NCBI GenBank assembly: GCA_029582155.1
Contig: CM055896.1
Span: 7,332,624 to 7,396,623, forward strand
Source of the DNA: Panopea generosa
Lineage: Eukaryota; Mollusca; Bivalvia; Adapedonta; Hiatellidae
Direction: 5' to 3'
DNA length: 64,000 nucleotides
Below, piece by piece: positions 715 to 47,372 of the stretch; the stretch's first letter is position 1; each line of letters opens with the position of its first letter. The notes beneath the pieces were generated by a model, which was given only the letters and a program-made list of their open reading frames with translations, made no database searches and had not been told where the DNA came from. The position numbers and the translations under genes were made by a program.

Positions 715-1226
715 ATGGAAACCACTGAAAGGACGATAGATCATGGCGAGCCTCCTTTCCAGGCTTGGTCAGAAGAAATACCTGACTTTATATGCTCCGT
801 GTGTGAAAAAGATGGTGAAACGTATGAAGCGGTCACATATTGTACGATATGTTGCGAGTTCATGTGCACTAGAAGTCTAAAGGACCACAACAAATTTTCT
901 CCTAATAAGTCGCACAGATTGTTAGGTAAATCTGAGATGAGAGCACAAGGGAAAAGTCTGACGTTATCGATACGGCATGGCTCGGACGACATAAGCAACA
1001 GCCTTTCGGGGAAAAGTCTGATGTTATCGATACGGCATGGCTCGGACGACATAAGCAACAGCCTTTCGCACTCGATTCGGCATGGATCTGACACCATGGA
1101 CGTCAGTCTTTCACAGTCAATATTACGCGGATCAGACGCCATGGCTTCCAGCTTTTCAGATTCAAGTCAGCAAGGAATAGATGCCGTTTCCAACAGTTAT
1201 GAACAGTATCAAGAACTGGAAAGAAG
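715..1226 (+). CDS. Exon 1: B-box-like zinc finger and RHGSD repeats
   Basis: Residues 27-67 fit a B-box: C27-x2-C30, C43-x2-C46, C51, H58 and H67, in the context typical of molluscan TRIM-like B-boxes (CEFMC). The expected ligand three residues after C51 is Ser (codon AGT, one base from TGT), so one zinc site may be weakened. There is no RING upstream. From about residue 79 a Ser-rich repeat with core IRHGSD follows; two 60-bp units (951-1010 and 1011-1070) are nearly identical, then three more diverged units. The exon ends in phase 2 at AGAAG/GTAAGT, a strong donor. Confidence 0.8.
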
Positions 1227-2211: not shown

Positions 2212-2262
<51 letters not shown>

Positions 2263-14200: not shown

Positions 14201-17200
14201 CAAGAGTTGTTTAGTTATCAAACAATGAAATTGGAGAATTCATAATGATTTAAAATAAATATATATAATAAAAATTTTGCTTACCGTTTGCTTTTGCCGC
14301 TGTGTCCACTCCTCCCTCTAACCCAGTTACTGCTGTTACTGGCAATGTATCACGTATCTAACAGAAAAAAATAGGAAAGCAATGTTAAAAAATATGGTAC
14401 ACAATTTTTCGAATCACATTTATATAATTCATATAATATGAAACAGAGCCACATTTTTATTTTTAACTAGAAGTGGTTTCAAATGATTTTCATTCTCAAT
14501 TAATATCAATATGCTTCATATGTATGTTATTGACAGGGTAGGATTTAGAAAAAAGTGCAACAACTTTTACAAGAAAGACAACAAAATAAAAATATGTTAA
14601 TATTGAAAAAAAATCAACGCATGAACTGAAGTTCTTTACACATATCACTGAATAAAGCACTTTGATTGGTTATGGATGTATACTTAGGTTTCAAATGGTT
14701 GTGTTGTTGTCTTACCACTTTTTCCCAATTTTTCAAACTTGGAGGAGGGGGGCCCCCACCAGTTTGACCTCTACACCTGGCTTCCTCTGCTGCCTTTTTT
14801 TTAAATCAAACTCTGCAGATCCTGCCACTTTTTCTTCACATCCAAAGTGGACCTCTTAATTTCAGAGTTGGCATTGATGCTAAAAAATATGTTATAATCT
14901 ATCAAGTAATTAAGAAACTATACATGTTATATTTTGTACAGGAGAATCACAATATCTGACCCTGAATAACCTGACTAAGCTCTCACAACTTAGGTTGCTT
15001 ATGATACTTTAATGTAATGGACAAAATTGCTTTACTATATCTACATTATTTTGTAAGTTCAGTAAATTTGCAAAATGTAGTTCATTTAGTTGAAAGGGAA
15101 TGTTTAGAGAACTTGTGGCCAGACCACAAATTGTATTTGACTTATATGTATGATATATATTGTAATATGGGTTTACATGGCAATAGGATATGTTTAAATT
15201 AAACTAGTTCAGTAAAGACATTTTAATATAATACCCGTAATGTAACACATCAATACACCCTAACAATTTACACAAATAAAATTTACGGTTATCGAGATAA
15301 AAATTTAGAATTATGTACATCGTAAACATGCAATGGGTGTAGATATACAACATAAAATAAGAATTAACTTCCCAAATACATCCTCCAGGATAATATCATC
15401 GAGAACAGCTTGAGAATTGTCAACACTCATGTTCACGAAACATTTATATGCCGTGTGTAAAAGTCGTGTACAAGCCACACCTTATTTTATTTTGACAGTT
15501 GTGGGGGCGCTTACGGGATTTTATATAATGCGCATGCAACGTATCATTACCTCTTCTCTTTCTTTTTCTATCTTAATACGAAGACAATTATGTAATTAGC
15601 AGTTTTATACATTTACCTTCATTAATTACATAAAAAAAATATATTTTTTTTTGTTATTGTAAACAAAGAAGAGTTACCTGTCTGTCATCATCTCCCACAG
15701 CTTGTTTTTTTATTCATTTGTGACACTGGAACTAAACTTAGCTCTTACAGCATGAATGTTGGCTGAAACCAGCTCAGCCAAACATTCATGCTCCGATAAA
15801 GTCCAGCTCGGTTTTCTTTTTTTTATATTAGGAATTACACAGTCCATACCTTTTGTTGTTGTTGTTGTTGTAGCAGACGAATAAAACGAAACCGAAAGCG
15901 TTTAAACGCATGCGCGAAACCGGCGGATGTTGTCAACATTTCCCGACTGTTTTCATTTTTGGAGATTTACGAGTCACAGACATTAAACGTAAACTTACGT
16001 TTAAGGTTTTCCAGTTACGTTTACGATTTTGCTTAAGAGTGGTTTTGTGAAATAGACGTAAATAAAATCTAAAGATAATCTTAACTTTTATCGTAAACGT
16101 AAAACTTACGAATTTTTGTGAGACTATATTGCAATTATAGCTGAATTACTGCCGATTGCAACATTGATTGTCACGTTGATATACGATGTCTACGTATGTT
16201 CGAGTTGTAGCGCTTCATTTATCAAACAACTTCTTGTTATCACAATAATTTAAAACATGCATATAGTCGCTTCATTTCTTTGGAAATAGTACATGTATAT
16301 AACATCATGGGTCAAGTTTTACTTTATTAAATTTAACTACAAAAACCTAGAATATTGACCTTAAGTAAATTGTTTAAATGCAACTGCATGATTTGTCGTA
16401 TGCATGGCTGTTTCACTTTTCATTCGGTGTCAACTAACAAACTACACTCAATAGATGTGAAAACGCAACACATGGTTTAGAGTGGACTTGCTTGCAAATG
16501 AGAACAGTGACACTAGTGCAGAAGATACCGTCTAAGTTAGTATCTCGAGCAAACAATTACTTCAGACGATAATAATAACTGTAGGATATGGATATATACA
16601 CTTATATATGTTGCGTTTTCATATTTCTTGAGTGTAATACTAAATCAAATGATTATAACTAGTAATCAAAATGAAATGTAACTATATTTAAATGCATTCA
16701 TACACTTTGGTTGTTTTAAAATTAGAATAATTTTAACAAAACAACCAGATGAACCATCAACTTTGATGTACAGTTTTTCTCTTTTTAATAAAACTTACAC
16801 AGGTTAGAGGAATGTCAAAACGAATTGCACCAGAAGAAAACTGAATTGGATAACCAACGCCGTGAGTATGAGTATTCGACACAAAGATGTGCCGATCTTA
16901 TTGTGGATATGACCGACATGAAGACATGTAAGGATGATTTACAGAAGAAGCTTGAACAATCACAGGATAGAGCAGATACACAAGCAAAGGAAGACAAAGA
17001 GAGATATGACAAACTTGAAAGCGAGCATAAAGAAATAAAACACAGGTTAACTGTTTTTACATGCTTGAATAAATTACATTAGTGATATTATTCGTTCATT
17101 GAATCTACGGTTTTGAAAACAATACATCATGTATTAAAAGTTATTAAACGCGTATGACCTTTATCATGGAAACGTCATCATTTTATTTAAGTAGGAACTA

Positions 17201-18550
17201 TATAATAATAATTATTTCTTCCGTTTCAATCCTCTTTACTATGTATGTTGTGGAATTCGTTTTACATAACCTATGAACAAAATACGTTTAAATCAAATAT
17301 ACTATATATTTATGATGAAAAACTTTGTTTAAAACATTGCCTATGAAACCTTTTATTGATGAGATTTTTATTGACACAAACTCAGTTTTACATGCCACGT
17401 ACTTCAACTGATTTTTATTATTCTTTCTGATTCCTCGGATTCATCCTTGTTTGAAATTAGAATACTGTCGGAAAATAGGCTACGCAACAAACCAGTGTTA
17501 GGGGCGTAATAGTTGGTATATATTTGTTTACCCCTTATGAGCAGAATTAGTAAGCCCGAGTCCGTTATTGTTTGCATGATGAGCTTTCAAAGGATTTTAT
17601 TTCAGAAATTGGCAACGAACATAGCACAATAATTGAATGACATTATAACTATCGCAGGGAAAACACATTGTGAATATTGTTGTCAACTGATTTAATACAT
17701 ATTTTGAATTGAAGTCTGTGGATGTCTACGTTTCTTTTTACCTTAAATACGATAAAATTATATTGCAGGTTACATGCTATGTCTACAGAGTTAGATATTC
17801 AGTGCCGCGTAAAGGATGGGTTTAAAATGAAACGAGACCTTGTTGAAAAGCAATGTGTTGAACTTGAACAAAAGGTGAAGGACATTACAAGGCATAAAGA
17901 AGAATTACAGACATATCTTAAAGATGAAAAAGACGGACGAGTGAAAGTAAACAACAGGTAATTTAAATAAAACTTCTTTTTCAGAGATAATTACTATTTT
18001 TATATCACAAAACGTGTAACATTTGGCTCTACATATCATATAGTTCATTTAGTAGTTTGTTATTCCACTATTAAAATGTTTACATTTTCACATTTCATTG
18101 TAACATGTGCTAATTGTCAGGAAAAGTATTGTATGTAACATTAAAATGACTCTGAAAGAACATATTTAAATGTTTACCTTGTTAAATTCATAATTCACCA
18201 TTGTATATTTAACTAACATTTAAAATCATTCCATTAGTGAACTTGTTTTAATAAAGAAATAGATTTTAATGTGACCGTTTAGGATTTTTATGCGATGAAA
18301 ACATTCACAGTTTATGAGAGACTACTGTATTATGATTAAAGCAAACAAACATGTATGCATAACTGGAGATATTCAAAGAAAGCAGCCAACATAATATCAA
18401 CAATACCATACACAATATCCATACAAATCCTACCTACCTACCTACCCACCCACCCACCTATACAAAAATAATACCACAAACATATACACCCACACTCATA
18501 CACCCAACCACATACATACATACATACATACACGCACGCGCGCGCGCGCG

Positions 18551-18603
<53 letters not shown>

Positions 18604-24600: not shown

Positions 24601-27600
24601 TAATATAAATATTTCCGTTAAAATGCACTGATACACAGGAGCTAAAATCTGGGCAAGTGGTATTTAAAGCGGCATAACCAGTATCGAGAGATATTTCTTT
24701 TATACAGAAACCAACACCGAACTACGGAACATAAACCTTTGTAAAATGAAAAAAAAAATCTCACCAGCCACCACATTTCTGGTATAATTCCAAACGTTAA
24801 CAGAGAAACAACACATGTAGGTCGTTCTAGCCCGAAACAACGAGCAGTGGAAATATGTGAATCAAGTCCCATCTACAAGTCCCACTCTTTATTACAACCG
24901 TATAATCTAAAACAACGAGCAGTGGAAATATGTGAATCAAGTCCCAGCTACAAGTCCCAATCTTTATTACAACCGTTAAATCTGAAACAACGAGCAGTGG
25001 AAATATCTCGACCCAGTCCCAAGGCCCAGTCACAATCTTTATTACAACCGTGTAAGCCAAATAAGCCCAGTTTAAACACGTTAACGTCCAAGTCAAAACA
25101 ACAAGCTAGAAATCCATCTACAACGCGGCCTACTTTTACAGACAAAGTAAAACACATAAAAGCACGTGAGAAGTCAATGTCCATTGACAGGTCAAATAGT
25201 ACAGGCAAATCACGTGGTCGACCCAAGAATAACAGCCAACCAGGAACGAGGACGGGCTCGGAGCTAGAGAAGTGTTTTAGATTGTTCGTTTTCAGAGCTA
25301 ATCACAAATGGGCCACGCTGCAACGTTATAAATCGTCACCGAAACTGTGTAAAATATCACGTAGTAATAGTTATACGACACGAAGCGGGAGGGAACAGTT
25401 GGTAAATGAGCAGAGTATATAAATGGCAGTCGATTTGCATTAGGACAATGAACAGGAGAGAGTTTTACAAAATGATATAGACTATACACACATTCATTTT
25501 GCAGTTATAAGCATTCACTGATTGATTACTAAGAGAGTAAATAAACTACAATCTAAAGAAATGATAAACATTTTTAAAAATAACGCCATTATATGTTTAA
25601 ATGAAAGACACGATTTTGATTTCGAACTCAAAGGACAAAAACATAAATAGAGCTCCAGTGGAATTTTATTATATATAAAAATGTGTATATGACAAATGAA
25701 ACCTTTATTTTAAATTATGATGATTCTCGTTTGTGGGTACAGTTAGATGGCATTTTAAATTTGAATATGATATATATTTATGCCTTTGCCACACGGTACC
25801 AACTAACTCGAGCAGAAATGCTTTAATTGAGACAAATGTTTAAATATTCTTCTCGAAATTATTATTCATATACATAATACATTATAATTCCAGAATAAGT
25901 GAGCAGTGCCATTATGTTGGCACTGACAACAATTTTCATGGTGATCAACTCCCATATGAATATGTAATTGATATAAAATTGCCATGTAAATCATTGGATA
26001 AAAGTGTAAATTCAAATGGGCAATTATTGCTTGATTTTCTTAAACAAACGTGTCTTAGGGAAACAAATTGGAAGGTATTTGAGGACTATTTGTATTCATG
26101 GACCTTATATCCAAAGTGATCATTGTTTAATTACATTTTCTTTGGCGAGCTCGTTTAACCCAACCGATAATTATAATTTAAACAAATCCTTCGCACAAGA
26201 GAGAGCACCGGATAGATGCAAAACAGTTTATAAAATAGGAATATTTATATAAACATAAGAATATAAAGAAATATTTATATAAACATTAGCTGTCGTCTCA
26301 GAAATTTGAAACTAGCATTTATTTTTTAAGTAATATTTTAGATAATATTCATTCTAAAAACGATATTGATACATCAATATCGAATTGTATAAACAATATC
26401 GATGAAATGTGTACACCCTTTTTTGAAAAGAGATCATGGTCAGATAATATAAATAGACAATGTATGCAGTCAAAGGGAAGCAACTCATTTTTAAATAACG
26501 AGTGTCATACACTAAGAAAATCATTTTACAAGTTTTCAAACGAATATCGTACAGAAAAATCAAATGAAACAGAATCAACATGGTCAATGCCCAATCGTTA
26601 TATAAGAAAAGCGTCCGAAGTTTTCATTTTCAAAATGATAAGTTAAAAACTTTAAAACTGTTAATCTCTAAAGTAAAAAATGTTAAACACTATTGGAAAT
26701 TACTGAAAGAATAAACGATTTCTAATTATCCTCAAAATATCAGCTCTGAAACATTTGAAGAATATTTCAAGGCCATTAATATCCGAATAGACCCATTTGT
26801 CAAGCGAACATGGACGTTGTATATTTTAACGAAACTGTTTTGTTCTTCGAAATACAAATAAAGTTTGATGAACTGAATATTCCTATAGCTGAATCAGAAG
26901 TGAGATTAGCAGTCTTTGAATTATGTCATGGTCGCATTGGAGGCCCAGATATGGTCCTAAATGAATTTTTATTCATGGAGTGAATTATTTAGCTCAATAT
27001 ATTTCTATTTTTTTTAATGAAATCCTTGACCACAGTTATTTCCCGGATAGCTGGAGTGATGTTTATATTATTTCTATCCATAAAAAGCGTATTTTAAGCG
27101 AGGTTGGAAATCAGAGGTATCACTTTACTTAGTACCGTAGGAAAATTGTTCACTAGGATCCCTAATAACCGATTTACTAGGCGAGTAAAGGCACATTACA
27201 TTTATGTTGAATCACAAGCTGGATTTAGGTAAAAATGGGAACAACAGACAATATCTTGATCTTTTCACGGTATTTTAGTTATATGTTAAATAATGGTCAG
27301 AACTTATTTTGTGCACGGTAGATTTTTTCTAAAGCTTTTGATTATGTTGTAAGAGAAAATATTTGGTATAAACTAATTAAGTTAGGTGTTAGAGGAAAGA
27401 TTTTGAATATCATCAAATCAATGTAAATAAATGTAAGGCGAAGGGTAAAATTTAATAACACTTTAAGTGATACTTTTGAATGTTATCTAGGGGTTAGGCA
27501 AGGTGAATGCATGTCACCATTCCTATTTTTACTGTACCTAAATGACTTAGAAGTGGATATTTTTCTAATAGCAAGAGCCGGGGTAGATTGTTGACTACAA

Positions 27601-30600
27601 AAAGTATTCTTATGTTTGTATGCGGGTGGTATTATAATCTTCCCTCCAAATGCTGAAGAGATACAAAAAAGTATAATATTCTAAATGAATATTGCGATAG
27701 ATGGAAACTTAAACTTAACACAGTAAAAAAACAAGGTTATGCTCTTTAGAAAAGGAGGCACTGTATCGAGAAGTATGGGGTTTTATTTTAATGATTTAAA
27801 ACTGGACATAATCAGTAAATTCTTGTACTGAGGCATTGTTTTCACTACGGGTGGATCATTTAGCGAAGCTCAAAAATCTTTGGCCGACTAATCCAAAATG
27901 CTATATTTAAGTTAAAAAAAATAATTACATAAATGTGTTAATATATCGCCAAAACATGTTTTGGAGTTATCTTGTAAACTAGTCACTCCTATATTGAATT
28001 ATGCAATGAAAGTGTGGGGGGTTATTCAAGCGCATCAAAAAGAGCGGGTACATTTACAATTTTGCAAATCGATATTAGGTGTAAACTTATCGACACAAAA
28101 TGACATTATCTACAGCAAGTAAGATAGAAAAAAATACTATGCAAAGCGAGTATAAATAATTATAAATACTGGTTCAAAGTTTTGAACAGCAATAATCGAA
28201 AATATATTCACCATGTTGACTTAATGATGTTAAAAGATATAGAAAATATCACCAACTATTACTAATTGGGCCACGCTTGTCAGAGATACATTATGCAGAT
28301 TAGGATTTTATTATAAGTGGTTAGAACAAGGAGTGGGTGATATATATATATTTCTTTCAATATTCAAACAAAGACTACGAGATAATTATATTCAAAATTC
28401 GAATGAACATTTAAATAACTCTTCACGGGCAACATTTTACTGATCTTTTTCTACTTTTAATGTTCAGTCATATTTAGAAATAGTTCACATCCCAAAATTA
28501 AGAAAAGCATTAACAAGATTAAGAGTAGGTTAGAACTAAAAACAGGATGATGCAAAAACAATTAAAACTCCTAGAGAAAACAGAAAATGCAGAATATGTA
28601 TCTTGGAGGACGAATTTTATTTTTTATTTGAATGCAGTGTATATAATAACATAAAATGTCAGTACTTTTAGCCTTATTGTTTTCAGAAACTGCAGCATGT
28701 ATAAGACCGTCGAATTATTACAATCTGGTAACAAAGATAAAAAAACTTAGCAACATATATATTCAAAGCTTTTGACATCAGAAATAGATTTATTTTGAAA
28801 AATTACAATACTCTCCTGTTATGAAAGTTACATAACGGTATGTGTTGGTTTAAAGTTGAACAGCAATCCAAACTTAAGCATATGACAAAAAAGTATTATT
28901 TTTATTTGTTTAACGAATAAGTTTAAAGTATAACTTATAATAGTATTTGGGGAAATGTTTCTTTATACAGGAATAGGTTTAAATATAAAGGTAGATTAAG
29001 ATATTTCATACGATACGCGTGTCATTAAATACACACATGTTTGTATTATTGTTATAATGTTATCTGTTTGCTCGTGGTCATTGGTGACTAATGTATAAAT
29101 TTATATGGAACTTTGTACGATTAATTGGGGATGGCCTCGACCCGCAATAAACCCATGATAACGAAACTCTTATTCTGTATCAAATTGTTAATGGATGGCA
29201 AACGTTGTCGTAAATTGTCGTTGTCATGGCCTTCGGTGCATTTATAACAACCGATACACCTCATAAACGTGAATAAATTGTGTTTGATATCTCAATGTAC
29301 TGATCAGTAATTCTTATATGAAAATAAGCTGCTTCGCTGGTGGAAATTATCCTAAAACCTCCGATTGAATACATTCGGCAAATTCCGTCATCTTTCAGCA
29401 TTAGAACCGTCGCTAAGTTATAAATGCATATATGAACAAATATTTTATTTCCATTTTGTTGGAACCTATTTCTATTAGAAGACGATTATGAGAACCATTG
29501 GAAAAAAAGTGTTGCAAGAGAAATGAACAAAACTATAGTTATTTTACGGAATGCGAAATCGGATCTACCGATCGACAATCCGCAGATATAACCACTTTAC
29601 CATGGAGGAATATATCGATATCAGCGACATTAATCCAAATTTCCGGACGTTTACGTATGTAACTACTAGCTTATGTACGTTATTCGATAGGTCAGGTCTA
29701 ATGCAAATATCGCCGATAATAGCGAAGGCCACAATTTATACAATATATTAATGTATATTATACAATTATATCACGTTTTTTTTCTTGATTTGAAATGACA
29801 TAATTCAATACATTTTTTAGTTCAATGTATTGTATTTAATTTAATTGAATGTATAGAAATGACATCAATACTGGTTGTGAAGCTTTAATTTAAAGATATG
29901 CAGACTAAAAAAAGTCCCACGCAATTTAAAGTTCAATAAAATCCAATCAAAATTGAGAGGTATGAAAAACAGATACGGTAAAAATGAACAGTTCTTTTAA
30001 TTTTCTGTTTTTGAGCATACTTATCAATTTGTGAAATACCTTCAAATAGTATTTTCGCCACAGAACATGAAAATGTCATTTTGTGTTTGGAAAACAATAA
30101 TAAGAAAAATAACTAATTTGCAAACAAGTGATGTATTCAAAGGAAGGCTAATGACAAAAGTCTAGGTCAAAAATAGACAAAACATTAGCCATATTTGCAT
30201 AACTGTACCCCATTTGTATAGATTTTATATACACGTCATACTTGAAGCTAAAGGTTTCAAATACTTATACTCACCTATAGCATCAGAACTCCCATGAATG
30301 TTTTGCTACAGACCGAAATATAAACCTACCTGATTTTCATGAAGAAAATGTCACTGAAATATTCATTGCCAGAGCTGTTACCCGTGATAAGACTTCTATT
30401 CTAAAAATGTGAGAATTTCTGTTAAAATGTAAATTTTATCCGTCTGTGAATTCCAAAAGAAAATTCAGAGTCAGGAATGTTTTACTTTGCATTTATGTCT
30501 CCGGGGCCTATTTCCGAATATTCCAAACTCGTGATTGCTACCTGCAACTAAAATCCTTTTTTTTATATAGGACATTGGACCAACTACATTGGTAAAGGAT

Positions 30601-33600
30601 ATCAACGGAAGGGAATATCCTTTAGGCAGGGTAATATCACTGTGCATAACTTACTTGCAAAATTACATATGCAAGTTGATTGAGCGTCAGGAGGCTTACT
30701 TAAACATTTTTGAGGACATTCACTGGGTATTGGTTATACCGGACATCTGTTCTACAGAAATGGCACAGGTCATCGTGAATGCTGCAGAAGTAAGGATGCA
30801 TGTTTTATTTTTCTTTGTTTAACTACTATCGAATGCAATAGAAAGCATCACAGTTTAATCTGTTTATACACATGCCTCCTTTTCAAACAGAGAGAGTGAA
30901 TGCTGAAACATCAGAACGTGTTAGTAACATGTATCATAACACAACCATTTTATGAATTATTTTCTTTTGCTAAGTGTATATCTGTAATAAAACAGGACTT
31001 TATTGGTAGAAATATAGAATAAGTACAAATATTGGACAGTTTTTTTTTATATATAAATTATTTAATGACCCCTTTTGGTGGCATTAGCAAAACTATTGTG
31101 TTCTATGTATCAGTATATGTATTTCTTTAAAATGTATAAAATATCTTTAAAAAACATCTCTAAGAATAGTTTAGTTGGTATTCATGAATTCGTACATTCG
31201 TAAATTCCAGGAGAACATAACATTCTCAGTAATGGTCAAATTTGATTGAATTAAAAACCAGACCCTGTGTCACTAACATTTGCCAATTTACAAACTGCTT
31301 AAGCGTAAGATTTAACTTTGCTCAGGAAATCACGAAATTCGTTATGGGTTCCACCGACATCCTCATAAAAAATACATACATGATACATACACACGTACGT
31401 CACATTTTAAGAATTACGAAGTTTCGTAAAACGAGCCGTTGGCGAGTTCGATTTATGATAGGGAATACTCCAGTGTGACGGCGCTCAGAATACTGCCTCG
31501 AATAGACATTGTCACCATATAACTGAAAAATTGTTGAAAGCGACGGTAAATACCATACAACAACAGCAACAACAACAACAACAACAACAAAATACAATAT
31601 GCTATGCTTGTAAAAAGAGTAAATATCAGATCTGTGTTATTAGTACGTCCAATTCCAAAACTTGTTAAGCAGTATGCTATTTTTCCGATCTATTATTAAT
31701 TATCAATTCCAATAATATATTTCAACAAAGCCAATACTCGCTAAATGCTCAATGTGTGCTAGTCTGCTCACCCTTAGTCCGACGTCTGTCCATCTTCTAA
31801 TTTTAAAGTTGTGTGTACTTAAGCACCTACATTTATCATTTCATCTTTTCCAAATATAAACAGTAGTTATATAACAATAGTAACAGTTCTTGAATTGATA
31901 AACTTTGATAGCTGACGTAATATTTATGTCGCACATCAATACAACAAAAACTGTCGTATTTGGCATTTTGTGCTCTTTAGGACCCACATCCTTCAACAAG
32001 ACTTCACCATAACTTACATAGTAGTTATATTAACACAATAACCGGGACAATTTTTTTCGAACTGGTAAATTCGTATAATTTATGTCCAAAAGACGGACCT
32101 CAAGACACCAAACATGGATTATTTGGCCGTGTGTTCACTCTTACACCTAGGAATATAATTTGATTTGCATCGAACTATTAAACCGTTTTATAACGTTAAT
32201 ATCGTACACGAGTTTTACACTGGTAAACTCGAATATTTAATGTGTGCCGAGTTATGGTCTTTGTATGATGTAAACTGATAGTGTTACCTTGTGTGCTCTG
32301 TAGCACCAGAATGTATCATTGGATCTTGACCGAACGTACACAGCAGCTGGACAACAAAATCTGGGATATACTGCTGGTAGGCTTGTTTGACATTCAATTG
32401 TGGCCGTTTAATTACTTGTAATGGGCCTTATTGGAATCAGTTTGGCCCTCGTACATATATCCTACAGAGTACGGTAAACAGAAGTTGTTATATAAAGAGG
32501 TGTTTGCTTATTTACTCTGGAGGGTTTAATATACTCTTGCTTGTGAACAGGAATGTTTTCACGGATGTATGGTGACTAGAATAAACGAAGCGGAGGCATC
32601 ATTACTCTACTGTTATATCGAACCGATGGACAAATGTGAGTTTTCACTACAAGATGCTGACATAGGAACGAAATACATCGTTTTTAAAGTAGAAGGTATA
32701 TCATATTATATCAAAGTTGTTAAACTAATTAGTTTCTCTGGCCTTAAGTAACATTAACTTAATAGTATACGATAATGGGCTGAAATGAATCATGCTATTT
32801 AACCGCTGACACATATTTGACATCATATAGGTAATACAAATACTAGTAAACTTCAATTTTACAGTAGGTGTTTCTTATGTGATTGGACAAAACTGGACAA
32901 CAAATATTTGCCCAATTTAAATGAATGCTTTGTTGTTGGTACTGTTTATTTTTTTATGCTAATTATACATTCATGCTTACAGTAATTGAGTTGGTCACAT
33001 GTGCCCTGCTTTCAATGGAAGTTCGGCATAGAAACGACATGCAGCGTTTCGCAGTGTTTACACGAATGAGTGCAGATTGCTGGAGTGAGCACTTTTGTGA
33101 ACAAGAAGAAGTGTGAATCAGGATTATGTAATTTCAGGTTTATATTCATGCAATTAGTTCTAAATCATCCAATAACATTTATCGAGATATATCTTATCAT
33201 CATAGCAATATTATTTATTATATTTGAAGACGAACTAGCTATCTGCTCTGTACACGAAGTCATGCCACGACAAGTAATAAGGAGGACAGGAACCGGATGC
33301 GTTATGCTGGACATTGACAATGTAGTTAAGGAATTCTTCGACAATTTATTTGGTATGTATTTAAAAGCATTTTCTGTTTTATGTCATTGTAATAACATTT
33401 ACCTTGGGTTCTCTAGACTTCTCAAAATGTATATTTAAAGGGAGAATATTGGCATTTAACTCTTAATATGGTGTCATAAACCAATATTACAAATTCATTT
33501 TTTGAATGCAAGTAATATGAATATATATTTCCACTTTATTATATGCATCGGTGTTCAGAAGCTAAATTATTTGATTTGTTTACCTTTCCACTTTGAACAT

Positions 33601-35619
33601 ACTGACTTCGGAATTCCGATTTACCACCGTAAGCCGTGATGGTGTAAATAAATGTGAACAAATGCATAGTTTGACTGATTTAACAATACGCTCTGGAAAT
33701 GGTCAAACGTTTTGAAATAATTTACCAAAATATAATTGCAGTAAAGGGGTAAGGTAGCTAATGTATCACGGAGAAATTATCAACAACAGAACGATCACGA
33801 ATATAACGATTCGAAACTTTTCAGTTGTGTGCACACATTACATACATTGTACTACCATTAAATCGTAGTCCTTTCATTATTACGTATTTCATCATTGCTA
33901 CAGTTTTATGTTTTAAAAAAAATACTATCGTGTCAAAACCTAGTTCTTTCTTTATTTCTATATAAGTATTGACATGATATCCAATTTCCGCACACAACAT
34001 ATACCTAATAAATTATTTTACAAGTCCATTCCTTTATTATGGGTTGTGACAATTGCCTTTGCATATGCTTTAAAAAATAATCAACCATTAGGTGCGTGCA
34101 CGGATATTTTCGAAAATGCAAAGCTATGCTCGGAATGTATACGGAGATAAATGTAAATATTGACAATAATTTTTCGCAATAAACTTTTGTCAATATTTTG
34201 ATTTAATAACTCTTAGGTTAGTTATTGCGTTGAATCGGTATACACGCACTATTTTATGTGCGTAACATATAGAGAAAATCTCCATTTGCATCTTTATGTG
34301 TTATTTTCCAATATGATCGCTTGAAACTGTGATACATAGTTGATTAATTTCAACTCTTCCAGATGATATGTTACATTTTTATTTAAACACTGAGAGAATA
34401 AACATAATATATATTATGTTAAATAATTGTGAGTTGATGTTGTTTACTAAAAAATGGTCGTCTCTTTCCAATAAACATTTTCGGTTGAAACGGGGAGTCA
34501 CTTCGGTCAGTAATTTATGCGCAGTATATGTAATTCAAATTATAGGGGATGCGTTTAGAAATGGAGTCACTTGCGGCTAGGTAATATTTAAATGCATCCC
34601 CTTTATTCTACTCAGTGTATTATTGACTGGAAGCCACGCGCTGATTTATTGTACGAATGCCGCGAATCGTTCGTATAAAAATAAAATCATTTTAATAACT
34701 GTACCAAACGAAATAAAACGAAGTCTCTCAGTATTGACAGCGAAAAATAATTCGCTACGCATCAGCGCACGGGACAGAATCAAACAAATGTGTATATGCA
34801 ACAATGGATCCTAAGCAAAATGAGCATACGTAATGGGAAGGTTAAAATTGTATGCTAAAACGTATCTCAAACCTACCGCATATCACGAAATCGTACCGCC
34901 AAATAAAAATTTTTTAGCCGGGCCCGATTAGCTCAGTCGGTTACGCGTCTGACTATCAATCCAGGTGTCGTGAGTTCGAATCCCCCGCCCGGCAACAGTC
35001 TCCGCGATGATTGATATATGACATTGTGTCTCATTATCATTCGTCTCTCACCACTGATTCAAGTGGGAAAGTTATCAGTTACTTGCGGAGATGGGGTGTG
35101 CTTGAGTACTGGTTAATCCCAGGAAACAGTGGTTAGGTTAACTGATCTTCTGTTAGCCCCCGATGGCATAAAATGACGTTAAATATTCAATCAATCAATC
35201 AATCAATTTCTTTATGGAAAAAAGTTCCCGGACTAAACAAATATTGAGCCTTCGGTGCTCATTGTTTTCTTCAGTGCGTGTAAATAACATATACTGACTA
35301 CAACCGTGTACATGATAAAGTTCCATCGCAGACATCAGTATGTATTTTTAGTTTAAAAATAAAAAAAACAATAACGATGCATCAAGTTATATATCTCCCC
35401 CTCAATATTTAAGAAAAAAAACAACAACATAATTTATGTTATCTTTCGTATCAATATAATGATAATTACCTTTGACTCAATGGTCTTAAGCTGCCTACGA
35501 CTACCTGGCTTTAACTTAATTCTAAACGATTTTGCCTGAACCGTATAACACAAATGTCAACAGTGAGTGAAAGTGTCTGATGTTCTACGGAAAGAAATGA
35601 TACAGAAATGATATGCATA

Positions 35620-35660
<41 letters not shown>

Positions 35661-38514
35661 CTTTATTTTTCTTTGCCGAATATAGACCTCGAGATTGTGC
35701 GCATCACAATACGTGTATTGGTTCGTGCACTTCCCATGATTGGTAGAGAATTCGGAAAACAGTACGAATGCAAATTGAAAGCAAACGGCTTAAAAGAACC
35801 GTCCGCTCATTTAGTATTACACGTCTCAATTGAAGTCCTTTATTTTGTAAAGAAAAAACATCCAAAAGGTTGTTTTTTGTCTTTAGAAATATAACTACAA
35901 GTTAATAGCATACTATCAAAACCTCTTAAGCCACCATTACTTATATACTGCCACCACCTATCCTACCATTGGTTTGTGACCTACCACATTACCACCACCT
36001 ACCATTAGTACTTACTATACCGTCGCCAACTTCCAAGCAATCGTCATTTACAATACAAACATCATCTAGCATACGGCGATAATCTACCCTGTCATCAACA
36101 TTTACTGTATCATCACTCCTCAAAATACAGTCTCAACCAATATTTCTGCCACTACCTACCTCAATATCTGAACCATCAACACATTCCAAGCAATCACTAC
36201 CAACAATACAATTCCCACTTTCCATACTACCACAATCTACCATACAAACAACACCAACTGTATCGTCACCACCCAGAATGTAATTACCAGATACCACTGT
36301 ATCACCATCTCCCACATAACTTCTATCTTACATGCTTCACTACATACCATATTGTCATTTATACCTTGGCATCACCGTACACAAGACCATAACTCTCTAT
36401 TGTTATAAACAAGTTCACTAACATTGCCATTGCTACCTACGTCATAGTCATATTTATTTTCAAGTGGTAGATAAAAATTATCACTATCAACTATTCACCA
36501 CATATATCTGAAACAGAATCGCCCGGTTCTAAAATGACTACCGTCTTTTCCAATATATGTTAACAAAGACAATGGTATATTGTCGATATATTCCAAGTCG
36601 CTTTGTTCTGGCTCCGTATATACTATAAACAACAATTGTTTCTTAGGTAATATACATTTCGCGGGTGACTTCACTATCGCTCAACTTACGGGAATAGCAT
36701 TTATATGTCTTGCTGTGTTCTGGTGTTAAAATGCCATTAAAGCTCGAATCAACATTTATATGAGTCAACTCAAAGAGTATACCCACGTATTTGCCTAACA
36801 AACTACTATCTACATAATTTATTATTTCACGAATAAAATATCTGCGGACACCTTTCTTCAATTTTTATACCACTCTATAGCATAAGTTCACGTGGATTTC
36901 ACACAGTGGTATGGATTTTAATTTGAAACATTTTGGAGCATTTGTCTTTGCAGCTCACGAAATGTTCAGTCGGCTTTTTTTACACCAAACATAACCCGTT
37001 CTATGTTTCATGAAATGGAACGTTCAATTTTAATCAAATGAGCGATTCCATTGGCTGAGAAAGTAGGACAACATCTAACAATTTTACGGCGTGCTTCGAG
37101 TAACCTTACCCAAGACTACTCCAACAATGATTATTTTACAACTGATTAACAACTGTAATTATTTCATTGTTGTTTTTTCTTATGCTTTAACTAAAATATG
37201 AATGAAGACAGTAAGGAATATTGAGAAAAACAGACAGTCTCTCAATAATATCCGACAAAAACGATACCTCGTATTTACTTTTGAATTGGTTAGATTTCTC
37301 TATAAGAAGTTATCTCTGTATACCAAGTCTCAAAATACAATCCATGTACAAGTATTACAAATTAGGATATCACTAATTCGAGTTGGAATAGTTTTGCGAT
37401 TTAAATATAGAATATTCAAATGAAATTAAGGTGCTAAATTAGAATTAAAAACAATTCTTCTTAAATCTAAACAGATTGCAAAACTACTCTCACTTTAGTC
37501 AGAATATGACAAATAATCTCTTTCTGAAATATAAATCAAAGAATGAATATTTTTGCCAGACAACGATTTCCGCGTATTTTACCGGGTACGGACTTTTCAT
37601 ACTTCACCACCAGCCCCAGCCCAAACGCGCTTATCATACCATTCGTCGCGCTATGACGTAACGCCATATGGCGTATTCAATCATAAATACCTCGTGCTAT
37701 GACTATTTTATTCATAAATGCCATGGTATCCTTGCTCTACTATGAAATTAGACCAGAACAAAAAAATGGCACAGTTTACGTATTTATCATGTTTTTTTTA
37801 GAGCAGGTGGAATATTCCATCCATCGGGATAACAGTTACTGTTTTGGCTGTAACTCGGCCTCATTATCACAAAAACTGTTATCCCATCGGAATGGAATAT
37901 TTCATCCGTAAATCAAACCCAAAGAACGATAATAATAGTATTACACTCGATTTAATTTTGTGATACTCTATATTGTAATGGTATTATTCATGTTTCTATC
38001 TTGATAAGGGTCCCAAGTTATGAAGTTATATCAAGAACAGCACCAGGATAAATACACCGAGGAAACATCTGACTTGAAGCAAAAACTAACTAAATATTGT
38101 TGTAAGGACGTATATGGGAAGAACAAGGACACGTTAACAATAAGTTCTATTGACGGACTTCAATGTTTTCTTTTTGACAACGGGTTGGAAACAGTTAAAC
38201 AAGCGATAGGAGAATCCATATACGCTGGTCAAGTTAATGTACGTAATCGCAAATTACGAGTGGACACAAACGTGTTTGTGGAATTATTTCAAACATATTA
38301 CATGAAACTTGCTGACATTGCTCAAGATCTTGTAGCACAAGACGTTTCAGCTATTTTTATGACAGGAAAACATTTTAAATGCGATATTGTGTTAGATATT
38401 ATGAGAAAAAGTTTTGAAAGTGCAAAAATAGTTTTTGGACCGGAGTATATCTTTACTGGAGCTACATTATACGGACATGTCAGCGGCGAAGCCACACTGG
38501 GGCAGAAGGAGTAG
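715..38514 (+). CDS. B-box / coiled-coil / HSPA12-like protein, 14-exon gene
   Basis: Seen: exons 715-1226, 16803-17045, 17769-17957, 18632-18862, 19510-19674, 20197-20233, 21869-21950, 22492-22542, 24107-24258, 30571-30789, 32551-32695, 33230-33352, 34363-34428, 38009-38514. All introns are GT-AG, phases agree at every junction and the sum is 2721 nt, giving 906 residues. Order: B-box-like zinc finger (about 27-67), Ser-rich repeats (about 79-150), coiled coil (about 170-400), linker, HSPA12-like region (about 460-906). Known of the family: HSPA12 proteins are divergent HSP70-fold ATPases, strongly expanded in bivalves; B-box plus coiled coil is typical of TRIM-like proteins. Inferred: a cytosolic oligomeric scaffold or sensor without normal ATPase activity, since all three nucleotide motifs are altered. 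An in-frame stop at 658-660 with no ATG between it and 715 supports the start, unless a 5' exon lies upstream. Exon 13 and the exon 2 donor (GTTAAC) are the weakest parts. Confidence 0.75.
1484..1640 (+). repeat. Left terminal/subterminal repeats of the Harbinger element
   Basis: Begins with TTTCACAAAAATTCGTA and contains several copies of CGTAAACGTAAG-like motifs, some in tandem (about 1513-1555, 1575-1590), plus a second TTTCACAAAAA copy at about 1562. Such subterminal motifs are plausible binding sites for the element's own Myb-like protein or transposase. Confidence 0.7.
2215..2261 (+). repeat. (GA)n microsatellite
   Basis: Uninterrupted GA dinucleotide run of about 23 units in an intron of the Harbinger transposase gene. 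Confidence 0.95.
3967..5099. mobile_element. MULE-like element with long, internally tandem TIRs and 8-bp TSD
   Basis: Seen: flanked by direct repeats ATAAAATA (3959-3966 and 5100-5107). The ends are inverted repeats made of tandem units of about 30-40 bp, each with CGGACAAAAGCCCCC or CGGACATAAGCCCCC (left, 3971 to about 4155) or the complement (right, about 4863-5093). Inside is an ORF with a FLYWCH-type motif. Known: Mutator-like elements make 8-11 bp duplications, often have long TIRs, and in animals often carry FLYWCH domains. No MULE transposase core is present, so this is a non-autonomous derivative. Confidence 0.8.
4741..4995 (+). pseudogene. FLYWCH-type zinc-finger fragment running into the TIR
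   Basis: The ORF starts MEFIKSNKGSSKLCYEGHTY and continues through TKKKENKVTVAWECSKR. It fits the FLYWCH pattern (F-x-x-S-x-x-G ... L-x-x-(D/E)-G-x-x-Y ... W-x-C). After about residue 38 it reads straight through the right TIR as repeats of GAYVRP, so the rest of the zinc finger is missing. It looks like the 5' coding tip of a parental transposase. Confidence 0.6.
6135..6395 (-). repeat. tRNA-derived SINE (family A), minus strand
   Basis: Reverse complement of the SINE seen at 34920-35215: tRNA-like head at the high-coordinate end (TTAGCTCAGTCAG-like A box, GTTTGAATCCC-like B box), body with ATTCAAGTGGGAAAGTTATC and AGGAAACAGTGGTTA. It lies in the gap where the catalytic-Glu exon of the Harbinger transposase is missing. 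Confidence 0.8.
6848..6967 (+). repeat. (TG)n-rich microsatellite
   Basis: Interrupted TG/TTTG runs just after the last Harbinger transposase exon. Confidence 0.9.
7030..7840. repeat. Repeated block with inverted arms
   Basis: Blocks sharing GATAAACTGCCTGCCTGATA and TCAATGCAAGTTTA recur near 7060, 7425 and 7815. Between the first two is an inverted pair, TACCATGTTAGTGTCTAATA (about 7259) and its complement ending near 7386. Probably one interspersed element broken by tandem duplication. Confidence 0.55.
7620..7770 (-). pseudogene. LINE reverse transcriptase fragment
   Basis: Minus-strand reading GSDSLGAKFFKMSASVIAPI then LTKIFNSSLDTNTFPKLFK matches the jockey/CR1-type block before the RT core (K-A-x-G-x-D-x-(I/L)-x-x-(K/R)-x-L-K). 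Only about 50 codons remain. Confidence 0.6.
7855..8116. repeat. Interspersed repeat with AGAGTGCACACAA motif
   Basis: Contains AGAGTGCACACAA twice (near 7870 and 8027) around a GTAAAGGCCATGAC block, then GGACAGACGACGGACAATAA. The pattern resembles short non-autonomous repeats of bivalves; family not assigned. Confidence 0.4.
8379..8440. repeat. AT-rich hairpin
   Basis: Inverted arms AAAAAAGTATATCTAT and ATAGATATACTTTTTT around a 22-base loop, in an intron of the Harbinger Myb-like gene. Confidence 0.7.
9549..9835 (+). repeat. tRNA-derived SINE (family A)
   Basis: Begins GGCCCGATTAGCTCAGTCAG (A box) with B box GAGTTTGAATCCCC, then the shared body (TTCGAGTGGGAAAATTATCA, AGGAAACAGTGGTTAGGTTA) and the AAAATGATGCTTAATATTCA end. 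Full length. Confidence 0.85.
10961..11260 (-). pseudogene. P2X7-ballast-like Cys-rich fragment in the TTAA element
   Basis: Minus reading: FEPEFSKAELNELENE, one stop, then HVKDFCSCGNCVMLLSSDEN, TCCRCND and LECITEIIQQCFMKVS. The order C-x-C-x-x-C ... E-x-x-C-C ... C-I-T-x-x-x-x-F is the pattern of the zinc-binding C-terminal ballast domain of P2X7, also found in many proteins outside P2X receptors. No channel domain is near. Recognition is from memory and needs a profile search. A possible downstream part near 10170-10410 could not be confirmed. Confidence 0.5.
11905..12270. repeat. Short interspersed DNA repeat with inverted edges
   Basis: Starts GGGCCAAGATGGCCCTATAT then CGCTCACCTGA and ends near GGCTTGGCCTGTAGAGCT. 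Inside, CACCCCCTGGCCGCCATGT occurs twice (about 11995 and 12163). MITE-like; no coding content. Confidence 0.5.
13085..13545. repeat. Interspersed repeat (ACAAGAGTTGTCAGA family)
   Basis: Begins ACAAGAGTTGTCAGAATGAT and contains two similar GTTATC(C/T)AACTTA stretches (about 13190 and 13491). Resembles a short bivalve repeat family; no protein read from it. Confidence 0.35.
15960..16122 (-). repeat. Right terminal/subterminal repeats of the Harbinger element
   Basis: Inverted counterpart of the left end: ACGAATTTTTGTGA at the outer edge, with TTACGTTTACG and GTAAACGTAAA motifs inside. It pairs with the left end over the terminal 15 bases. Confidence 0.7.
16123..16802. other. Intron 1 tail
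   Basis: Between the Harbinger right end and exon 2. AT-rich; no ORF, repeat or RNA gene recognised. Confidence 0.5.
16803..17045 (+). CDS. Exon 2: coiled-coil segment
   Basis: The reading frame (phase 2 in, phase 2 out, 80 complete codons) continues from exon 1 and reads as charged, heptad-like helix rich in E, K, Q and D, beginning RLEECQNELHQKKTELDNQ. No stop in frame. The acceptor TTACACAG is good; the donor GTTAAC is weak. This is the first exon after the transposon-filled intron 1. It extends the coiled coil that usually follows a B-box. Confidence 0.75.
17046..18410. other. Introns 2 and 3 (apart from exon 3)
   Basis: The sequence around exon 3 (17769-17957) shows no mobile element or RNA gene that I can recognise. 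Confidence 0.4.
17769..17957 (+). CDS. Exon 3: coiled-coil segment
   Basis: Open in the required frame (phase 2 in and out, 62 codons plus split codons). It starts RLHAMSTELDIQC and reads as E/K/D-rich helix with regular hydrophobic spacing. Acceptor TATTGCAG and donor GTAATT flank it. Like exons 2, 4 and 5 it begins with the split codon AG/G followed by Leu, a repeated exon design suggesting that the stalk grew by exon duplication. Confidence 0.78.
18420..18601 (+). repeat. Compound microsatellite: CCTA, CATA, (CG)n, (CA)n
   Basis: CCTACCTA/CCCACC units, then CATA units (about 18508-18532), a CG run (about 18536-18559) and a CA run (about 18560-18600), ending 30 bases before exon 4. The alternating CG/CA tract is a classic Z-DNA-prone sequence. 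Confidence 0.9.
18632..18862 (+). CDS. Exon 4: coiled-coil segment
   Basis: 76 codons plus split codons in the same phase as its neighbours. It starts RLNEVQADLEKKETEIKS and is a clear amphipathic coiled coil. Acceptor ATATATAG lies directly after the CA/CG microsatellite block; donor AG/GTAAAC. No stops in frame. Confidence 0.78.
19377..19465. repeat. Hairpin in intron 4
   Basis: Arms ATTTTGCAAATTTAGATATAT and its complement ATATATCTAAATTTGCAAAA, about 24 bases each, separated by a T-rich loop of about 30 bases. Could be a tiny foldback element. Confidence 0.75.
19510..19674 (+). CDS. Exon 5: end of coiled coil, basic Gln/His-rich linker
   Basis: 54 codons plus split codons in phase. The start (RLELKSPNIHLDKQQQTQ) keeps the repeated RL start, then the sequence becomes basic and polar (RGQRKSPHVQIKRQIKSSD) and is probably disordered. 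Acceptor TGGTTTTAG; donor AAAG/GTAACT. It links the stalk to the C-terminal domain. Confidence 0.72.
20197..20233 (+). CDS. Exon 6: short linker exon
   Basis: A 37-nt exon (acceptor TTCATTACAG, donor CGT/GTAAGT) that turns phase 2 into phase 0 and reads SFDQICPSNHHQR. It is needed to keep the frame between exons 5 and 7 and both splice sites are strong. No function is recognisable. Confidence 0.65.
20290..21240. repeat. Interspersed element with tandem units of roughly 150-190 bp
   Basis: Four to five diverged units each carry a block like CCACTTGGCAGATTTTGAAA, then AATAACTTGGCA, and an AAAGTTCAAGGTCACGCTTA block. Framed by GAGCTCGCTTGTGGTAAGCT and GTGCGTCCGTCCGTCCG on the left and a GGGACCGACATTATAGCC block on the right. 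No coding capacity seen. It lies in intron 6 of the host gene. Confidence 0.65.
21869..21950 (+). CDS. Exon 7: HSPA12-like start with altered phosphate-1 loop
   Basis: 82 nt, phase 0 in and 1 out. It encodes IMSLSISFGASKSCCAFSF, which aligns with the phosphate-1 loop that opens HSPA12/HSP70 proteins (I-D-F-G-T-T ... G-Y-A). Here the catalytic Asp is Ser472 and the two Thr are Ala475 and Ser476. The minus-strand exon 50668-50749 has the same length, phases and motif, so this is a real and duplicated exon. Confidence 0.8.
22492..22542 (+). CDS. Exon 8: short HSPA12-like exon
   Basis: 51 nt, phase 1 in and out; acceptor TTTTTCATAG and donor ACAG/GTGAGT. It reads DSHIIRYIDLDRSKYRT, matching the position of the linker between the first two subdomain IA strands in HSPA12. 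No counterpart exon was found in the minus-strand copy; skipping it would stay in frame. Confidence 0.72.
22543..24106. other. Intron 8
   Basis: No recognisable element. Holds a short palindrome GAATGCCTTTCGGCATCCC (about 22819), and no ORF with a convincing family match. Confidence 0.4.
24107..24258 (+). CDS. Exon 9: HSPA12-like subdomain I
   Basis: 152 nt. It reads APTYVLIQPDGKTLHSFG followed by a DWYFFKGFNPLLF block. This is the HSPA12 signature in which a (K/A)-P-T segment is followed by HSFG and a conserved W-x-x-F/Y-F-K block. The minus-strand copy at 47974-48125 is identical in length and about four-fifths identical in sequence by eye. Strong donor TCG/GTGAGT. Confidence 0.85.
24835..25422 (+). 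CDS. Basic Ser-rich ORF with three 75-bp repeats and an AT-hook-like motif
   Basis: Open frame ending in TAA at about 25422, readable from about 24765; no certain start. Three in-frame 25-codon repeats (24835, 24910, 24985 onward; each about KQRAVEICESSP ... SLLQP) are followed by a basic Ser/Thr-rich tail with TGKSRGRPKNNSQ, whose RGRP core is AT-hook-like. It ends about 100 bp before the endonuclease-like part of the LINE at 25.5 kb on the same strand, so it may be that LINE's ORF1 or a captured 5' segment. It is not an exon of the host gene, since the frame ends in a stop. Function unknown. Confidence 0.4.
   Translation, partial: KQRAVEICESSPIYKSHSLLQPYNLKQRAVEICESSPSYKSQSLLQPLNLKQRAVEISRPSPKAQSQSLLQPCKPNKPSLNTLTSKSKQQARNPSTTRPTFTDKVKHIKAREKSMSIDRSNSTGKSRGRPKNNSQPGTRTGSELEKCFRLFVFRANHKWATLQRYKSSPKLCKISRSNSYTTRSGREQLVNEQSI
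25500..29110 (+). mobile_element. Degenerate LINE (endonuclease + reverse transcriptase)
   Basis: Reads, with many stops and frameshifts: an endonuclease part (IICLNERHDFDFELKGQ near 25590; GQLLLDFLKQTCLRET near 26018; SDHCLITFSLAS near 26118); an RT part (ELCHGRIGGPDMVLNEF near 26920; SQAGFR near 27212; VRQGECMSPFLFLLYLNDLE near 27495); and a C-terminal RKCRICILEDEFYFLFECSV near 28583, a Cys/His knuckle region. The catalytic YADD box reads YAGG near 27616. Probably a jockey-superfamily element; clade not assigned. Inserted sense in intron 9 of the host gene. Confidence 0.8.
29200..29740 (+). repeat. Diverged repeat, copy 1
   Basis: Shares an ordered series of blocks with 47265-47610 in the same orientation: TCATGGCCTTCG(G/A)TGCA, AAACGTGAA, GTAATTCTTATAT, TTCCGTC(A/C)TCTTTCAG then (C/T)ATTAGAAC, and GATAATAGCGA. 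Family unknown. Confidence 0.6.
29741..30570. other. Intron 9 tail
   Basis: AT-rich sequence with no recognised element before exon 10. Confidence 0.4.
30571..30789 (+). CDS. Exon 10: HSPA12-like, helical region and VIP motif
   Basis: 219 nt, phase 0. It encodes a long helix with YLQNYICKLIE, then DIHWVLVIPDICSTEMAQV ending NAAE, matching the HSPA12 segment (V-R-W-V-x-T-V-P-A-I-W ... A-A) before the second phosphate loop. The usual P-A-I-W is P-D-I-C here. Acceptor TTTTATATAG, donor GAA/GTAAGG. A degenerate LINE lies in the preceding 6.3-kb intron. Confidence 0.82.
30790..32550. other. Intron 10
   Basis: No element recognised except a CAA-triplet microsatellite at about 31558-31590. The spliceable-looking segment at 32305-32375 is not needed by the model. 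Confidence 0.45.
32551..32695 (+). CDS. Exon 11: HSPA12-like, EAEAS block
   Basis: 145 nt, phase 0 in and 1 out. INEAEASLLYCYIEPMDKC matches the HSPA12 block normally written A-L-E-P-E-A-A-S-x-Y-C; GTKYIVFKVE follows, where HSPA12 has GTKY-(I/L)-V-x-D before the Gly-rich phosphate-2 loop. The loop itself would start at the junction with exon 12 and is absent. Confidence 0.83.
33230..33352 (+). CDS. Exon 12: HSPA12-like, phosphate-2 loop lost
   Basis: 123 nt. DELAICSVHEVMPRQVIRRT aligns with the family pattern T-V-D-(I/L)-T-V-H-E-V; the ending VVKEFFDNLFG matches the family's D-x-x-F-x-x-F-L-x-x-(I/L)-F-G. The Gly-Gly-Gly-Thr residues that bind phosphate are replaced by acidic and hydrophobic residues, although the flanking strand and VHEV are kept. 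That makes random decay of the whole exon unlikely. Confidence 0.82.
34363..34428 (+). CDS. Exon 13: short HSPA12-like exon (probable)
   Basis: 66 nt between acceptor ACTCTTCCAG and the consensus donor T/GTGAGT, phase 1 on both sides, which is exactly what exons 12 and 14 require. It reads DDMLHFYLNTERINIIYIMLNN (22 residues, split here as DDMLHFYLNTE then RINIIYIMLNN), in the place where HSPA12 has a helical segment. Similarity is weak, so the exon rests mainly on phase, splice sites and position. Confidence 0.55.
34920..35215 (+). repeat. tRNA-derived SINE (family A), best-preserved copy
   Basis: Starts GGCCCGATTAGCTCAGTCGG (A box), B box GAGTTCGAATCCCCC, tRNA-like acceptor complement CCGCCCGGC, then the SINE body (GATTCAAGTGGGAAAGTTAT, AGGAAACAGTGGTTAGGTTA) and an AATC-repeat tail. 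Lies in intron 13 of the host gene. Known: RNA polymerase III uses A and B boxes of this type. Confidence 0.9.
35623..35657 (+). repeat. (TC)n microsatellite
   Basis: Uninterrupted TC run about 17 units long. Confidence 0.95.
35688..35894 (+). other. Unassigned short ORF
   Basis: Open frame after an acceptor-like AATATAG, with VRITIRVLVRALPMIGREF and GKQYECKLKANGLKEPSAHL. The composition looks protein-like, but I recognise no family and its phase does not fit the host gene. It may be an exon of a nested gene or a transposon remnant. Confidence 0.25.
35925..36420. repeat. Degenerate ACC/CCA-rich tandem tract
   Basis: Strongly strand-asymmetric, C/A/T-rich and G-poor sequence with loosely repeated ACCATTACCACCACCTACC-like units. 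A degenerate minisatellite; the minus-strand Gly/Val/Asp-rich ORF here is a by-product. Confidence 0.6.
37805..37915. repeat. Inverted repeat / hairpin in intron 13
   Basis: Arms GGAATATTCCATCCATCGGG then ATAACAGTT, and AACTGTTATCCCATCGGAAT then GGAATATTTCATCC, about 32 bases each with a 38-base loop. Could be a short foldback element or an end of an unrecognised transposon. Confidence 0.7.
38009..38514 (+). CDS. Exon 14: HSPA12-like C-terminus and stop
   Basis: 506 nt ending in TAG at 38512-38514. It has the C-terminal HSPA12 layout: the YAGQVNVRNRKLRVDTNVFV block (family L-x-(V/I)-D-x-x-(L/V)-(F/M)-x-x-(L/F)-F), then AIFMTGKHFKC where the family has (M/F)-L-V-G-G-F-x-x-S, and a final FTGATLYG matching K-G-A-V-x-x-G. 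The adenosine-contact GG is TG and the Ser is replaced. It lies about 790 bp before the satellite array. The first AATAAA seen downstream is near 39060. Confidence 0.82.
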
Positions 38515-47260: not shown

Positions 47261-47264
47261 ATGT

Positions 47265-47333
47265 TCATGAATTCTCATGGCCTTCGATGCAAACATAAAT
47301 GCCGATGTCTCTCTCAAACGTGAAAAAAACGTG

Positions 47334-47372
<39 letters not shown>

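Follow-up and report, generated by a model that had tools for sequence, protein, structure and literature searches.

A candidate Panopea generosa gene placing a degenerate HSPA12-type domain behind a B-box-like finger and a coiled coil

Does this locus hold one gene whose product joins a B-box-like zinc finger and a coiled coil to an HSPA12-like domain, and, if so, is that layout new? The window analyzed here is the whole stretch of 64 kb of Panopea generosa DNA (32% G+C, no N). The reading that we favor, to which we would give a probability of about one half, is a single bivalve gene whose product of 884 residues consists of a degenerate B-box-like finger, a stalk of ~220 residues that forms a coiled coil, and a pseudo-ATPase nucleotide-binding domain (NBD) of the HSPA12 type without the C-terminal part.

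The exon chain

On the plus strand, a chain of 13 exons has AG/GT at all internal borders, phases that all match, and 885 codons closed by a single terminal stop. Exon 1 (715–1226) supplies the start codon, which is the first ATG after an in-frame stop, and encodes the B-box-like finger (residues 27–67) followed by a serine-rich repeat region. Exons 2, 3, and 4 (16803–17045, 17769–17957, and 18632–18862), each running from phase 2 to phase 2, encode the coiled coil, an assignment drawn from their AG/GT borders, their phase, and the heptad test described below. Two linker exons come next: exon 5 (19510–19674, again phase 2 to 2), with a weaker heptad signal, and the 37-nt exon 6 (20197–20233, phase 2 to 0), which is without homology support. 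Exons 7–13 encode the HSPA12 half.

The original prediction counted 14 exons and 907 codons. That version can be rebuilt exactly, chain, borders, and phases included, by adding 34363–34428 to the 13 exons, with the last exon starting at 38009 (907 codons in 2721 nt, with a single stop at the end), and we infer that this 66-nt exon is the one meant in that count. It has good splice signals and would add 22 residues, at a point where 0 of 137 related domains has at least 15 residues (4 is the median among them and also the number in the 13-exon model, GSQV). Because the 66-nt exon lacks homology support, we prefer the model with 13 exons and 885 codons (884 residues) and treat 34363–34428 as a possible cassette exon that is probably outside the main product. 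An additional exon of 75 nt was also sought and was rejected, the 66-nt exon matching the 907-codon count instead, and a frameshift in exon 7 was dropped: the frame is open from the exon 7 acceptor, and the corresponding exon of a second copy (below) has the same length. The database searches, motif table, tree, and heptad test were based on an 881-residue version without GSQ, the final model having 884 residues.

Several introns hold other elements. Intron 1 contains a number of open stretches (1525–2768) that we take to resemble a HARBI1-like transposase; a Pfam scan of 1666–1896 gave nothing at E 0.01. Intron 9 contains a 225-residue ORF with a 75-nt tandem repeat (24745–25419), followed, up to ~28.4 kb, by stretches that, judged by eye, resemble decayed LINE reverse transcriptase. 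In intron 12, a tRNA-like stretch was seen by eye (34918–34995, perhaps a SINE); scans with Rfam (at the gathering threshold) and ARAGORN gave no match, this stretch included.

The HSPA12 half and the loss of its ATPase motifs

When the 422-residue C-terminal half was used alone as the query, only one of 1582 candidates matched at E up to 10: P0001, an HSPA12A-like protein of 601 residues from Mya arenaria (E 8.6e-34). The two are 29% identical over 428 alignment columns, with 96% coverage and no missing block across exons 7–13, and P0001 itself matches Pfam HSP70 (E 1.6e-12). The spliced protein as a whole gave nothing significant in Pfam or PDB sequence searches, and nothing at E 0.001 in the homologue search. 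The profile search that had been proposed as a check thus came out in part: HSP70 was unmatched at E up to 1, both in the spliced protein and in the HSPA12 half alone, and a B-box model (PF22586) was hit by exon 1 alone at E 0.0038, under its cut-off. On the strength of the alignment to P0001, we regard the original prediction of an HSPA12-like domain as confirmed and the C-terminal half as a genuine HSPA12-type NBD.

The individual exons bear this out to different degrees. Exon 7 (21869–21950), where the NBD starts with a degenerate phosphate-1 loop (SFGASKS), aligns to P0001 and was found by tblastn with P0036 (E 0.003). Exon 8 (22492–22542) is placed by its borders, its phase, and its alignment to P0001. 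Exon 9 (24107–24258) is the best conserved (tblastn with P0001, E 1.8e-15), and exon 10 (30571–30789) was found with P0071 (E 7.6e-09). In exon 11 (32551–32695) EAEAS replaces EPEAA, and in exon 12 (33230–33352) the phosphate-2 motif is lost, KVEDELAI replacing DAGGGTID. The last exon (38009–38514; exon 13 in the preferred model) carries the end of the NBD and the stop codon; with the acceptor at 38009 the G-S-Q-V spacing is regained, and the exon was found with P0035 (E 4.6e-08). The alignment to P0001 ends at GATLYGH/GAVMFGH, and the window protein stops 11 residues further on, so that the gene model is without the HSPA12 region C-terminal to the NBD.

We aligned this domain with 137 related NBDs, using the labels phosphate-1, phosphate-2, and adenosine motif as we presume they apply. 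The ATP-handling motifs are altered: at phosphate-1, VAAIDFGTTYS has become SLSISFGASKS; LEPEAAS has become NEAEASL; at phosphate-2, LDAGGGTID has become FKVEDELAI; GGAWGG has become GTGCVM; and VGGFSES has become TGKHFKC. Single positions that are nearly invariant among the relatives have changed as well: D40, G250, T252, D254, and G414, conserved in 132, 131, 130, 129, and 130 of the 137, have been replaced by S, D, L, I, and K, respectively. The text on Hsp70-12 in PMC12692333 gives DxGTT, EPxAA, and GGxT as the motifs of this group and describes it as the least conserved one; the window protein has SFGAS in place of the first and EAEAS in place of the second, and EDEL stands where GGGT would be expected. 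The degenerate HSP70 fold of the original prediction is therefore borne out as far as the motifs go, and the HSPA12 half, lacking the residues that normally bind and hydrolyze ATP, is by its sequence a pseudo-ATPase. Might it nevertheless bind nucleotide in some altered way and work as a switch? G42, G413, and both glutamates of EPEA are among the motif positions that are kept, but phosphate-1, phosphate-2, the GGxWGG stretch, and the adenosine motif have all changed together, and we consider such a switch very improbable.

Structure prediction did not carry the pseudo-ATPase assignment beyond the sequence. When an AlphaFold2 model of the last exon (28 homologues, pLDDT 72) was compared with the PDB by Foldseek, no match reached E 0.001; of the 514 matches with E up to 10, the 50 listed include some chains of the actin/Hsp70 superfamily (CorM, ParM, DnaK, and GRP78) among unrelated ones, which decides nothing. 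In a FastTree phylogeny, the window domain was paired with P0039d1 with a support of 0.59, leaving its placement unsupported.

A search of the window by tblastn with the fetched proteins revealed that the minus strand carries another HSPA12-like locus (45375–50749), which is an inverted and broken copy of the HSPA12 half. Its exons, with borders set by eye at AG/GT, lie at 50749–50668, 48125–47974, and 47092–46874; they match exons 7, 9, and 10 and are equal to them in length (82, 152, and 219 nt). The third contains an in-frame TAG, downstream of which the copy is decayed, with a decayed exon start at 45520, and no convincing counterpart of exon 8 was found in it. Between the main gene and this copy lies a tandem array of ~47 copies of a 73-nt unit (39309–42713).

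The copy provides a measure of constraint. Over exons 7, 9, and 10 together, dN is 0.31 and dS 0.92, giving a dN/dS of 0.34 (bootstrap 0.19–0.55, 500 draws), with values of 0.19, 0.13, and 0.59 for the three exons, respectively; the value for exon 10 counts against the reading that we favor. This points to purifying selection on at least the compared part of the HSPA12 half, and because the partner in the comparison is itself broken, the main gene itself probably has a ratio below 0.34. The phosphate-1 aspartate is absent from both loci (F in the copy, S in the main gene); since the copy also lacks it, its loss is unlikely to be a recent accident.

These figures bear on the possibility that the gene is decaying and that the motif loss in the HSPA12 half is a step on the way to a pseudogene. 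Its very long branch in the tree (2.15, vs a median terminal branch of 0.18), the disappearance of the ATP motifs, and the already broken state of the adjacent copy would all fit decay. Nevertheless, the chain retains 885 codons without stop or frameshift, dN/dS is 0.34 even against a broken copy, and neutral change rarely leaves sequences free of stops: among 500 simulated HSPA12 halves, 139, 19, 1, 0, and 0 were stop-free when 2, 5, 10, 20, and 30% of sites were redrawn. Given that ratio and the rarity of stop-free simulated sequences, the gene seems to have been retained, and we think decay unlikely. Our results instead suggest that the main HSPA12 half is a fast-evolving yet retained protein.

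The N-terminal half and its proposed connection to the HSPA12 half

The claim of a TRIM-style B-box held up in a weakened form. Exon 1 follows the pattern C-x2-C-x12-C-x2-C-x4-C-x2-S-x3-H-x8-H, in which 7 of 8 zinc-ligand positions are kept (C27, C30, C43, C46, C51, H58, and H67; the remaining position, normally C or H, is S54; positions counted by eye). Because the sixth ligand is a serine, the strict B-box motif fails, and the Pfam match of exon 1 alone, to the ANCHR-like B-box, reaches 17.7 bits, short of the cut-off of 27. A motif loosened to admit serine, written after exon 1 had been seen, occurred in 0 of 100000 shuffles. The best PDB match of exon 1 is TRIM28 (E 0.54), aligned so that most of the ligands line up, and an AlphaFold2 model of the exon alone was uninformative (pLDDT 36). 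Exon 1 is thus probably B-box-like but degenerate, and its putative zinc site is perhaps weakened. Pfam scans with E up to 1 found no RING finger, either in exon 1 or in the complete protein. Further along in exon 1, positions 949–1068 form a near-perfect in-frame tandem duplication of 60 nt (98% match), which suggests a recent change in the serine-rich region.

The coiled coil that had been proposed to follow the finger is much clearer. By a home-made measure of heptad coverage judged against shuffles, exons 2–4 (221 residues, with no proline) are 90% covered, a value reached by 0 of 200 shuffles, which confirms the coiled-coil pattern of this segment. The corresponding values are 46% for exons 5–6 (5 of 200 shuffles as high) and 28% for the HSPA12 half (50 of 200), and exon 1 is uncovered.

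Do these exons belong with the HSPA12 half? Because exons 1–6 have no significant relative (in the whole-protein homologue and PDB searches, in the comparison of exon 1 with the PDB, or against the Mytilus protein P0038 described below), it is phase that links them to exons 7–13, and at a single junction a phase match has a 1-in-3 chance of arising by accident. The locus could instead hold two adjacent genes, one encoding the B-box and coiled coil (exons 1–5 or 1–6) and the other the HSPA12-like pseudo-ATPase (exons 7–13), the latter starting at its own Met in exon 7 with a 5′ untranslated exon upstream. The two copies of exon 7 do share the position of an ATG, immediately ahead of the first strand of the NBD; upstream of this Met 1 of 7 residues is identical between the copies, and from it onward 12 of 20 are (counted by eye). 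AATAAA/ATTAAA signals are seen by eye between exons 5 and 6, so the first gene could end after exon 5, and reading on past the end of exon 5 leads straight into a stop.

The inverted copy also fits two genes in that no exons 1–6 are seen alongside it: we found no B-box or coiled-coil exons beside it, and tblastn with the model (E up to 5) was empty above 50.75 kb. The only nucleotide match beyond the copy is to 31 nt of exon 4 (plus strand, 53749–53779, E 2.2e-05), in a region of retroelement-looking ORFs; reverse-transcriptase-like retroelement ORFs, the largest of 295 residues, were seen by eye at 54440–56938. Several features argue against separate genes, however. Exon 7 is 82 nt long with a phase 0 start in both copies; the first AATAAA/ATTAAA after exon 6 is at 21697, and the absence of any for 1.46 kb is mildly against a gene end there; and other bivalve proteins (P0038 and P0108, below) carry a B-box or a coiled coil upstream of HSPA12. 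Two genes are thus a serious possibility but the less probable one, and we lean toward exons 1–6 and 7–13 forming one gene, whose single transcript would span both halves.

Related fusions and comparison with known systems

If exons 1–13 do form one gene, is its layout unprecedented, as the original prediction thought possible? In our search for fusions, P0001 was embedded in a longer query and only its part was scored, which restricted the candidates to proteins of at least about 815 residues; 7991 candidates sharing the most words were scored and 142 passed E 1e-5, and the figures given here rest on the 120 listed. Degenerate relatives share few words with P0001, so the search could miss them. 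The best-scoring named relatives among the matches listed come from Mya, Solemya, and Mercenaria, which points to a bivalve origin. B-box and HSP70 Pfam domains occur together in one chain in 1 of the 120 listed matches (of 142): P0038, a predicted 916-residue "heat shock 70 kDa protein 12A-like" of Mytilus trossulus (zf-B_box, E 1.5e-11; HSP70, E 1.4e-10), which is also the only one of these 120 to contain the loose B-box pattern. Between the two domains, P0038 is 63% heptad-covered (without a shuffle control). A second species therefore has the same order of B-box region, coiled-coil-like stretch, and HSPA12 domain, and the layout appears to be unusual, not unique. In contrast to the window protein, P0038 retains, by eye, its HSPA12 motifs and every ligand in each of its two B-boxes, and it has a full C-terminal region; its N-terminal half has no significant similarity to exons 1–6. 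Given that mismatch and the intact motifs, a shared origin of the two fusions is no more than a possibility.

Other bivalve proteins share parts of this arrangement. P0001, the closest HSPA12 relative that we found, differs in having no Pfam B-box, intact motifs, and 148 residues past the end of the alignment. P0108, annotated as "myosin-10-like" in Crassostrea virginica, resembles the window protein more in outline: a long coiled coil (83% heptad-covered) is followed by an HSPA12 NBD with the same end point, although there is no Pfam B-box and DFGTTYS and DLGGGT are intact. By coordinates, its variant P0109 likewise has a coiled coil and an NBD ending at the same point. In the precomputed Pfam column for the 120 listed matches, PF00619 (which we take to be CARD) appears in 11, PF18738 (HEPN_DZIP3) in 2, and PF08477/PF16095 (presumably Roc/COR) in 2. 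Several of the bivalve matches, P0002, P0003, and P0022 among them, have two HSPA12 domains per chain, and in P0022 the first of these has, by eye, a degenerate phosphate-1 motif.

What might a single protein of this kind do? B-boxes contribute to the assembly of TRIM proteins. We tentatively suggest a nucleotide-independent, oligomeric scaffold or sensor in stress or immunity, in which the stalk would oligomerize the chains, the zinc finger, if it binds zinc, would help to build higher-order assemblies or to bind a partner, in the manner of TRIM B-boxes, and the HSPA12 fold, with neither ATP cycling nor a C-terminal region, would act as a fixed head for a ligand or partner.

We found no description of a B-box/HSPA12 protein among the matches listed in the open-access literature, where the sole co-occurrence of "HSPA12" and "B-box" that we found concerns the B-box of HMGB1. 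In the portions of the literature that we found, bivalve HSPA12 genes are mostly treated as stress genes. The relevant part of one oyster study reports that hspa12a and hspa12b transcripts of larvae were altered in all bacterial treatments and consistently up with the pathogen RE22 (PMC7720132). The passages on DED/TRADD-N proteins of C. virginica in PMC8195603 (eLife 2021) describe a variable C-terminal region that holds HEPN, STAND, B-box, HSP70, and other domains. That list of B-box and HSP70 among shuffled domains, together with P0038, leaves the suggestion in the original prediction that the layout is unknown without support. The C. virginica proteins resemble the window gene in using B-box and HSP70 as interchangeable parts of bivalve immune-type proteins; those passages are silent on the two occurring in one chain, and the Pfam scan of the window protein found neither DED nor TRADD-N.

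Taken further, the comparison would make the bivalve HSPA12 NBD an interchangeable core of innate-immune receptors, fitted with CARD, HEPN, Roc/COR, or B-box/coiled-coil heads much as NACHT/STAND is in NLRs, and the window gene a branch with a pseudo-ATPase core on an oligomerizing stalk. We offer this as speculation and consider it rather improbable. The joining of HSPA12 to immune-type heads suggests that some bivalve HSPA12 proteins are receptors.

A further parallel is the TRIM (RBCC) layout, in which a B-box is followed by a coiled coil and then by a C-terminal globular domain. The window protein has the same order, with a B-box-like finger, a coiled coil, and a globular C-terminal domain, so the likeness to TRIM proteins that had been claimed stands as far as domain order goes; it is not a TRIM, however, in that no RING was found at E up to 1, its B-box is degenerate, and its C-terminal domain is of the HSPA12 type. 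If confirmed, it would represent an HSP70-type fold redeployed as a non-ATPase recognition or scaffold module within a TRIM-like frame.
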